Assembly (NCBI RefSeq): GCF_003574085.1 | Contig: NZ_QWKZ01000008.1 | Coordinates: forward strand, 1 to 43,761 | Length of the DNA stretch: 43,761 nucleotides | From: Meiothermus luteus | Lineage (GTDB): Bacteria; Deinococcota; Deinococci; Deinococcales; Thermaceae | Direction: 5' to 3' | In this document: piece by piece, positions 12,339 through 14,351 of the stretch | Position numbering within the stretch: position 1 is the stretch's first letter | How the letters are laid out: every line of letters starts with the position of its first letter | Program-made: the position numbers and the translations under genes | Notes under the pieces: generated by a model | What the model was told of the DNA's origin: nothing | What the model saw: only the letters and a program-made list of their open reading frames with translations | Database searches by the model: none

Positions 12339-13052
12339 ATGGGGCTATCGTTTCTTCCCTGGGCGCTTACGCTGCTGGGGCTGCTCCCCCTTTGGTTTTT
12401 CCCTAGGCAACAAAGCCTCTACCCCGGCGTGCTGTTCCTCCTGGCGGCCCTTCTACTGGCCACCGCGGCCAGCCTTTACGCGCGGGCGCCCCTGGGGCCT
12501 AAGGTGCGCTTTTTCTGGGTGCTGGGGGTTTCCAGCGTGGCCGTCCAAGCGGCGTTTCTGGCCAGCGGTGAGCTGGCCCAAGTGCCCGATGACCTGGTGG
12601 TGACGGCCTCGGTGGCCAGCCTAATCGCTCCTGCCCTCTTCCTCGCGGGCCTTTTTGTCCTCCTTCGGGGGGAGGCGCTCGGCCCCCTGCCGGTGCAGGG
12701 CGAGGGAGGGGTGCTGTCCCAGAGCGCTTTGCAAGCCCTGGCCCCGAGCCTTGAGGCCCTCTCGAGGGTGCGGCCGGTGACGCTTCTTTTGCTGCACACC
12801 CACCCGGACCAGCCAGGGGCCTCCCTTTTGCGGTTTTTGCGTCGGCCGGACCTGGTCTTTGAGCTAAGGCCAGGGCATTTCCTGGTGGTCCTGCAAGGGA
12901 GCGGCCCCGAGGGGGCCCAGGTGGTGTTCCGCCGCATCCGGCAGAGCCTGGCGATAAGGGCCTATGCTGTCTTGCCTCTTCAGGGCACCGTTCAGCAGGT
13001 CCTGCGGCAGCTCGAGGGGGAACTGGCCCACTACTATCTAACCCAGCACTAA
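12339..13052 (+). CDS. Four-helix membrane protein with a probable degenerate GGDEF-like domain
   Basis: The 237 aa product has an N-terminal half of four hydrophobic helices (about residues 4-110) and a soluble C-terminal half. The soluble part follows the GGDEF layout: a hydrophobic strand [14 protein letters not shown], then [14 protein letters not shown] where RPGHF sits at the GGDEF position, then [12 protein letters not shown] resembling the following helix. The GTP/metal residues are absent, so no cyclase activity is expected. ATG 12339 is preferred over in-frame ATG 12327 because of the TATGCT box. Its 3' end overlaps the convergent aminotransferase gene by 15 nt. The GGDEF relation is my reading and needs a structure-level comparison. 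Confidence 0.7.
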
Positions 13053-14153
13053 CCCCAGCCGTTCCTCAAAGGCCCTCTCCAGCCCGCTTAGCCCCAGCAC
13101 CTCCCCCAGCGCCCAGAAGAAAACCCGGTAGTGTTCGGGCCGGGCGCTTTCGCCCATCAAGCCCAGCCGCAGCACCTTACCGGCGGTAGGGCCGATGCCG
13201 CCGGCCACGGAAACCCCTCTGGCGTACAGCCCTTTGCGGATCTCGGCCTCGGTGAGCCCCTTGGGGGGGCGCACCACCAGCACAGTGGGTAGGCGGGCCT
13301 CAGGGGCCGCGTAGGCGCTGAAACCCAGCTCCTCTAGGAGCGAGAGCACCGTGGCGTACATCTGCTGGGCCCGCTTTTTGCGGTTCTCCAAGCCCTCTTC
13401 CAGGGCCAGCCGAAGGGCTTCCTCCAGGGCGTAGTGCAGCAGCACCGGGGAGGTGCAGAAGTACCCTTCCTGCTCCCAGTAGACCGCCACCCGGGAGAGG
13501 TCGGAGTACCACCCCCGCACCTGTCCCAAGCACTCCCGCCCCCGCTCGGAGAGGGCGAAGGGGGCCAGGCCAGGCGGGGCCGAGAGGCACTTCTGGCTCC
13601 CGGTGAAGGCGTAGTCAACACCTAGCTGCTGCATGGAAAGGGGCATCATCCCAGCGGTGGTCACCGCGTCCAGCATGAGGAGGGCCCCGTGCTCCTGCAC
13701 TATGGGTGCGATGGCCTCCACCGGGTTTAGCACCCCGGTGCTGGTCTCGCCGTGGACCAGGGCCACCAGCTTGTAGGGGCGGTGCTTGAGCTCCTCGGCA
13801 ACCGCCTGGGGGTCAATGGGGTGGCCCGGCTCGGAGCGCAGCACCCGGTAGTCCAGGCGGTAGGCGTGGGCGATCTCCACCATCCGCTCGCCAAAGGTGC
13901 CGCTTACTAGGAGGAGGACGGGGTCGCCCTCGTCGGCCAGGTTGGTCAAGCCGGCTTCCATGCCCAGGCTTCCCGAGCCGGGCAAGGCGGCCAGCAGGGC
14001 CCCTTCACCCGGGTCAAACAGGTGGCTCAGGTAGCCACGGATGCGTCGGTTGGAGGCCAGGACCTCGGGGTCAAGGTGGCCGCGCATCTCCTTGCTGAGC
14101 GCGGCCTGGACCCGGGGGTGGATGGGGGTGGGGCCGGGGGTTAGAAGCACCAT
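13038..14153 (-). CDS. Class V PLP-dependent aminotransferase (alanine/serine-glyoxylate type)
   Basis: The 371 aa product has the fold-type I, class V pattern: N-terminal LLTPGPTPIHPRV, PLP-contacting D162 in LMLDAVTTAG, and Schiff-base lysine K188 in FTGSQKCLSAPPGLAP. This sequence style is typical of alanine-glyoxylate, serine-glyoxylate and serine-pyruvate aminotransferases; substrate choice cannot be settled here. ATG 14153 is chosen because GGAGG lies 8 nt upstream and the protein then begins at the conserved GPTP segment; a 13-residue longer reading has no such support. An unusually long structured leader precedes it. Confidence 0.92.
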   Translation of the reverse strand: MVLLTPGPTPIHPRVQAALSKEMRGHLDPEVLASNRRIRGYLSHLFDPGEGALLAALPGSGSLGMEAGLTNLADEGDPVLLLVSGTFGERMVEIAHAYRLDYRVLRSEPGHPIDPQAVAEELKHRPYKLVALVHGETSTGVLNPVEAIAPIVQEHGALLMLDAVTTAGMMPLSMQQLGVDYAFTGSQKCLSAPPGLAPFALSERGRECLGQVRGWYSDLSRVAVYWEQEGYFCTSPVLLHYALEEALRLALEEGLENRKKRAQQMYATVLSLLEELGFSAYAAPEARLPTVLVVRPPKGLTEAEIRKGLYARGVSVAGGIGPTAGKVLRLGLMGESARPEHYRVFFWALGEVLGLSGLERAFEERLGLVLG

Positions 14154-14315
14154 GCTCGTTTCCTCCAAACAAAAAGGTGCCCCACCGAGCAAACCTGCGC
14201 GGCCTCTTCCCTATGGGAAGAGCGCCGTTAGCGGGTAGCTCGAGCGGGGCGGCTGTTCATCGCGTTCCCTGGGCGGCCCCTTGGTCGGCTTGAGTCCGCA
14301 CGGGGGGCCGCTTCT
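14154..14315 (-). ncRNA. Structured 5' leader of the aminotransferase mRNA, candidate attenuator or riboswitch
   Basis: From the promoter at 14322-14351 the expected leader is about 160 nt. Read on the minus strand it holds, in order: an 8-bp stem GCGGCCCC/GGGGCCGC enclosing ~23 nt; a possible 10-codon uORF (14228-14260); a perfect 8-bp hairpin CTCTTCCC-ATA-GGGAAGAG (14204-14222); and a short hairpin GGTG-GGG-CACC (14176-14186) followed by five T residues (14171-14175), just before the ribosome binding site. The last element could be a weak terminator. I could not match it to a known riboswitch or a T-box. Confidence 0.45.
14228..14260 (-). CDS. Possible leader peptide (10 codons) in the aminotransferase leader
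   Basis: ATG at 14260 opens a 10-codon frame (MNSRPARATR) ending in TAA, preceded by AGGGA at a workable distance. Its start overlaps the TGA of another possible small frame beginning at GTG (ATGA arrangement). It ends a few bases before the 8-bp hairpin. It is too short to be sure of, and its codons show no obvious run of one regulatory amino acid apart from three arginines. Confidence 0.25.
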   Translation of the reverse strand: MNSRPARATR

Positions 14316-14321
14316 GCCCTG

Positions 14322-14351
14322 AATATACCCGGGGGCTTTAGGCTTTGTCAA
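14322..14351 (-). promoter_or_regulatory. Promoter of the aminotransferase gene
   Basis: On the minus strand, consensus TTGACA (14346-14351), an 18-nt spacer, then TATATT (14322-14327). It is one of the best sigma-A-type promoters in the window and sits about 170 nt from the start codon, which is why a long leader is inferred. Confidence 0.75.

Follow-up and report, generated by a model that had tools for sequence, protein, structure and literature searches.

Textbook attenuators carry runs of sensing codons, T-boxes typically control synthetase and amino-acid genes, and arrest peptides such as SecM contain the dipeptide Arg-Ala. The attenuation of amino-acid and aminoacyl-tRNA operons was reportedly treated by Lopatovskaya et al. 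in 2010, and a Deinococcus deserti study is said to concern leaderless mRNA. The sole precedent found for the leader described here is AlaL, a leader peptide (MNVIGRNIFATARATSSPVAAA*; asterisks mark stop codons) annotated before an alaS gene in Streptomyces lividans TK24 and termed a type not previously described (PMC8079986). In S. lividans, trpL2 contains a single Trp codon, and a leader with one Trp codon is listed before trpS (PMC8079986), so that single-codon leaders are conceivable.

The window analyzed here, a 43,761-nt stretch of Meiothermus luteus DNA, contains a class V aminotransferase gene preceded by a leader that is real and conserved (Table 1). The nearest solved relatives of the enzyme are annotated as class V, alanine-glyoxylate or serine-pyruvate aminotransferases, and the enzyme would help to supply alanine. 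A sequence-only reading of this DNA had placed a strong promoter about 170 nt from the start codon, followed by a stem, a 10-codon upstream open reading frame (uORF) overlapping a second small frame by ATGA, a perfect 8-bp hairpin with a 3-nt loop, and a short hairpin with T5; all of these elements were recovered where it had put them, on the minus strand. The promoter (TTGACA at 14351-14346, an 18-nt spacer, TATATT at 14327-14322; 11 of 12 matches) is the sole promoter-like site in 3.1 kb, against an expectation of 0.2. The 167-nt leader folds with -81.7 kcal/mol (z = -4.1 relative to dinucleotide shuffles), a stability equaled by none of 200 shuffles.

Table 1. Features of the aminotransferase leader, in window coordinates
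Feature	Position	Strand	Basis
Promoter TTGACA-18-TATATT	14322..14351	-	Sequence; equivalent promoter position in relatives
Hairpin GCGGCCCC...GGGGCCGC between promoter and uORF	14273..14311	-	Lineage-specific
Upstream small frame, GTG start, 14 codons	14257..14301	-	ATGA overlap with uORF
uORF MNSRPARATR*, proposed sensor	14228..14260	-	Conserved frame, start, stop, and Arg-Ala codons in relatives
P1 5' arm GCCCCGC, within uORF	14244..14250	-	Pairing kept in relatives
CGA-GCU codon pair (Arg-Ala), rare CGA plus proposed alanine-sensing codon	14237..14242	-	Invariant in 31/31 alignment rows; codon usage
P3/P4 hairpin CGGC-G-CTCTTCCC-ATA-GGGAAGAG-GCCG	14200..14227	-	Covariation
P1 3' arm GTGGGGC, just ahead of T-run	14179..14185	-	Pairing kept in relatives
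T5 of terminator	14171..14175	-	Sequence
Ribosome binding site GGAGG of aminotransferase	14160..14170	-	Sequence
Class V aminotransferase, regulated gene	13041..14153	-	Closest solved structure 2YRI/2YRR, E = 2.9e-131

The uORF of the window (ATGAACAGCCGCCCCGCTCGAGCTACCCGCTAA, 10 codons) belongs to a conserved series. The search for aminotransferase orthologues covered first 61 relatives and later 111 genomes of the class, spanning the Thermaceae (f1; Meiothermus, Calidithermus, Thermus), the Trueperaceae (f3), and further families designated f2, f4, and f5. A short uORF containing CGA and an Ala codon (Arg-Ala), followed by a stop, was found in 71 of the 79 Deinococci genomes with an aminotransferase gene and readable upstream DNA (48/48 Thermaceae, 1/1 f4, 3/3 f5, and 19/25 Trueperaceae), and nearly all of these 71 leaders include a terminator as well. 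The codon pair is CGA-GCU in every one of the 48 Thermaceae. Examples from this family are MRFSARATL*, MRLSARAIR*, MRPARAIR*, and MRLLRAIR*; outside it, the frames read MRLFVRATP* in f4, MLLTARA* and VKLTARAR* in f5, and MFAAARATR*, MKMGRAT*, MIGAPLRAS*, or MRCAPRATRPR* in Trueperaceae. No Arg-Ala uORF was found before the aminotransferase in two f2 genomes and in the Trueperaceae genus g23. In one upstream region (L064, genome G110), a promoter-proximal frame without Arg-Ala, MTYNYIILGRPMGLNFVAFGLLRL*, occupies the expected uORF site.

Conservation is seen at the level of a reading frame. The distance from the uORF start to CGA is 12, 15, 18, 21, or 99 nt and is in frame every time, each of the three stop codons is used in one relative or another, and five Trueperaceae genomes have the synonymous GCG in place of GCU. 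The 99-nt case (L061, genome G080) is a stretched version of the leader, with a uORF of approximately 43 codons that encodes Ser-Ala-Arg-Ala-Ala (CGA-GCG) close to its end. In most genomes, the AUG lies 6-12 nt past the -10 box across the families (7-11 nt in most Thermaceae), and therefore translation would begin with, or close to, the first nucleotide of the RNA. Within the window, a start codon, three to seven codons, CGA-GCN, zero to three codons, and a stop (start-x3-7-CGA-GCN-x0-3-stop) occur together only once on both strands, at the uORF itself. In the window, 4.8% of Arg codons are CGA and 8.2% of Ala codons are GCT; of its 113 Arg-Ala pairs, not one is written CGA-GCT. An attenuator would have a short translatable frame between promoter and gene, and the conserved start, frame, and stop are consistent with one; the uORF is likely the sensor rather than an accessory.

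The sequence-only reading had put forward the layout of an attenuator or ligand-sensing RNA and had called for a covariation analysis of orthologous leaders, which supports the attenuator. In an alignment of 31 Thermaceae leaders (24 from aminotransferase and 7 from alaS genes), a four-helix structure was found in which 17 of 26 pairs are changed on both sides. Its cells are paired in 87.9% of cases; the figure for shuffles is 80.1%, and it does not exceed 62% once the structure is slid along the alignment. Of 500 shuffles, 0 reach any of five measures; the shuffles ignore relatedness, whereas the slid versions preserve it and yet score far lower. Helix 4 has 95.9% of its cells paired and changes on both sides in 9 of its 12 pairs, and the perfect hairpin CTCTTCCC-ATA-GGGAAGAG (14222-14204) lies in the covarying P3/P4 element. 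Support for P2 is uncertain because MAFFT misaligns it in some rows.

P1 pairs uORF codons upstream of CGA-GCU with the arm directly preceding the U-run, and the 5' arm of the terminator is therefore coding. The short hairpin and T5 noticed earlier are both present, but this hairpin is probably not the main terminator: GTGGGGC pairs better with GCCCCGC in the uORF than within the short hairpin, and the P1 pairing is kept in relatives, so that P1 replaces it in that role. The f5 leaders have the same arrangement in unrelated sequences (CTTCTGAC in the uORF, GTCAGAAG-T7 after it). U-runs are short in Thermus leaders. Trueperaceae leaders have a GACC...GGTC hairpin, separate from the uORF, as terminator. 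The Trueperaceae leaders L041, L043-L046, L055, L058, L060, L063, L066, L224, and L229 have in common AUGACC...GGUCGUUUU terminators, which come after a hairpin downstream of the uORF stop.

One alternative would be a riboswitch-type aptamer that recognizes alanine or some metabolite close to it, in which the conserved CGAGCU forms the binding site and the uORF is incidental. Such an aptamer would explain why CGAGCU is almost invariant in its nucleotides and why GGGUUUGC is conserved downstream of it in Thermaceae. However, the downstream structures differ wholly between families, yet the reading frame is kept; stop codons interchange and GCU is replaced synonymously by GCG. The Rfam search that the sequence-only reading had suggested returned no gathering-level match to any family, known riboswitches including the glycine riboswitch among them, in the window and 11 relatives, and for the leader of the window nothing plausible among hits with E as high as 5. 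We therefore regard an aptamer as unlikely.

The nature of the signal is suggested by a second set of leaders. A pattern scan of 50 Thermaceae genomes identified five second copies of the core, each upstream of an alanyl-tRNA synthetase gene. A covariance model applied to 111 genomes recovered the aminotransferase leader; in 15 of the genomes it also hit a copy immediately before alaS, as located by coordinates (E < 1e-6 in 13 of them, 0.003-0.005 in the other two). Five of these alaS copies and two others from the same survey had been used in training the model; the other eight alaS matches lay outside it. The remaining matches, three in Thermus with E > 0.007, were taken as noise, and no copies at genes other than aminotransferase or alaS were detected in the 111 genomes with this Thermaceae-built model, which misses f3 and f5 leaders. 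Beyond the Thermaceae, an Arg-Ala uORF precedes alaS in one f5 genome (L203; MKHTARA*, with ACACTGC inside the uORF and GCAGTGT before the T-run) and in one Trueperaceae genome (L219; MMCSINTQPERAI*). A number of alaS copies have low scores and seem degenerate; most of those in Meiothermus are degenerate or lost, and only a remnant precedes alaS in the genome of the window, as if the attenuator had been lost from this gene in part of the genus. In three alaS upstream regions (L150, L134, and L138), the window genome included, the 3' half of the leader alone is left (GTTTGC..., a T-run, and ATGCTGG).

Given that alaS is the other gene under the leader, and that an Ala codon is what stays constant in the coding content of the uORF, alanine, in the form of tRNA-Ala charging read by the ribosome, is the signal to which gene content and codons point best. 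The glycine, serine, or glyoxylate sensing proposed earlier is not supported, in view of the alaS association and the uORF codons. The tRNA-Ala anticodons in the genome of the window are GGC, TGC, and CGC. A codon for alanine, which the regulated genes would make or use, is conserved, even if many leaders have a single Ala codon, which is a point against alanine attenuation. A leader-peptide attenuator responsive to arginine by way of its rare CGA codon would agree with CGA being the most constant codon and with the two or three Arg codons in many uORFs. This reading is slightly less probable again than an aptamer, since the second regulated gene is alaS and not an arginine gene and since Arg is lost while Ala is kept in two Trueperaceae alaS leaders (MLTCSTIKAAI* and MLIYSTTQAAI*) and one aminotransferase leader (MHSA*).

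The constancy of CGA exceeds even that of the Ala codon, which alanine sensing alone does not account for; nor is the constancy of CGA accounted for by the peptide alone. A further alternative is a metabolite- or drug-dependent arrest peptide, in which nascent Arg-Ala would stall the ribosome. Arg-Ala is the sole conserved element of the peptide and, as in SecM, occurs in known arrest peptides, but the CGA codon itself would be unnecessary, the dipeptide lies anywhere from 0 to 8 codons from the stop, and flanking residues are not conserved, making this explanation a poor candidate, marginally behind arginine sensing.

For an alanine attenuator with a single sensing codon, we tentatively suggest, as a minority possibility, that the invariant CGA acts as a brake. 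An inosine-adenine pair in the P site, formed when CGA is read by tRNA-Arg(ICG), would render the ribosome hypersensitive to the supply of alanyl-tRNA at the next codon, so that, speculatively, one Ala codon could suffice. The A:I wobble pair was reportedly a subject of work by Curran in 1995. Searches identified tRNA-Arg(ACG), on which wobble inosine would be formed, in one Thermus genome and one f4 genome, and 7 of 7 genomes tested have a TadA-type deaminase domain. The P-site tRNA can influence A-site decoding, and many inhibitory codon pairs in yeast include CGA, decoded by an I-A pair (reviewed in PMC12868832). In B. subtilis, however, CGA runs did not hinder translation (PMC10454642), and the effect cannot be taken for granted in bacteria.

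Taken as a whole, the leader is probably an alanine-responsive, ribosome-mediated transcription attenuator. A ribosome would translate the uORF as RNA polymerase transcribes the leader. When alanyl-tRNA is ample, the ribosome would pass CGA-GCU, reach the stop codon, and leave; the freed uORF RNA would then pair with the arm before the U-run (P1 enclosing P2-P4), forming the terminator and turning the gene off. With alanyl-tRNA in short supply, the ribosome would halt with the Ala codon in its A site and cover the 5' arm of P1, which would block the full terminator and permit transcription of the aminotransferase gene and, where the second copy exists, of alaS. Ribosome stalling, the direction of the response, and alanyl-tRNA as the signal are features that we infer.

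When a ribosome footprint on the Ala codon was masked in silico, P1 was lost, usually with approximately 20 kcal/mol or more of folding energy, part of which reflects covered bases simply being unable to pair. Weak local hairpins ahead of the U-run persist in some leaders, including the T5 hairpin of the window. These results do not include L021, L029, L053, L057, and L066, where no U-run was scored, and the U-run was misassigned in L203 and L219. The terminator arm overlaps the uORF in Thermaceae and f5; in Trueperaceae, masking leaves the separate terminator untouched, and no dependence on ribosome position was seen in silico. This result, the residual hairpin before T5, the short Thermus U-runs, the decayed alaS copies of Meiothermus, and the absence of the leader from two f2 genomes and g23 weigh against the model.

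Between promoter and uORF, the window departs from most relatives. The 8-bp GCGGCCCC/GGGGCCGC stem of the sequence-only reading does exist (14311-14304 pairing with 14280-14273), but it is missing from most relatives, whose uORF starts directly after the promoter, and in isolation it folds at chance level (z = -0.57); confined to its lineage, it was rejected as a core element. A sister genome (L002) has another stem at this position. In both the window and the sister, the promoter-proximal uORF start is lost and an internal ATG, preceded by possible Shine-Dalgarno sequences (AGGGAA, AAGGAA), preserves the frame. The GTG frame reads as the relic of an insertion, and L010 has an ATGA overlap comparable to that between this frame and the uORF. 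A similar insertion of approximately 60 nt, with ATGAAACCCCT...GCTCGAG at its end, interrupts the uORF in L010 and L014 (aminotransferase) and in L129, L146, and L147 (alaS); in the leaders of both genes it provides a second start, in some with an ATGA overlap, and it may have been exchanged between them.

More generally, the leaders define a candidate two-gene alanine regulon, aminotransferase and alaS, across much of the class Deinococci, and an uncharacterized class V aminotransferase related to 2YRI gains a testable role in alanine supply. The leader is short, begins at the promoter in most species, and is present in the genetically tractable Thermus. With it, one can ask in a natural setting whether a single codon pair, CGA plus a sensing codon, can replace the textbook codon run; if the CGA brake is true, regulation would operate through two adjacent codons instead of a series of sensing codons.

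Among known systems, T-box riboswitches likewise link tRNA charging to synthetase and amino-acid genes, but direct binding of uncharged tRNA-Ala by a T-box-like leader, with no ribosome involved, is highly improbable here, since the Rfam T-box family gave no gathering-level match in the window or relatives, and none with E as high as 5 for the leader of the window, and the leader instead has a conserved, translatable frame. AlaL is closer in kind, as a leader peptide with Ala codons before alaS that was proposed as an attenuator and that likewise holds Ala-Arg-Ala-Thr (PMC8079986), a likeness at the level of the peptide. It differs in its length of 22 amino acids with six Ala, in being a single annotated case without a covariation study (PMC8079986), in its phylum, and in having no aminotransferase tie. 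The CGA-Ala rule was not found in the readable alaS upstream regions of an Actinobacteria sample, in which many gene starts were not located, except at one possible paralogous alaS (L318, genome G234). There, a small upstream frame, MATGVGRRASRAE..., has an in-frame CGA-GCT and is possibly a related leader or chance. With the trp, his, leu, and ilv attenuators and the leaderless leader peptides of Actinobacteria, the Deinococci leader shares a sensing-codon uORF, a downstream terminator, and the predicted coupling of ribosome and RNA polymerase. What appears new compared to these attenuators is an invariant, rare CGA before an often single Ala codon, and a terminator whose 5' arm lies inside the uORF, such that no separate antiterminator hairpin would be needed.
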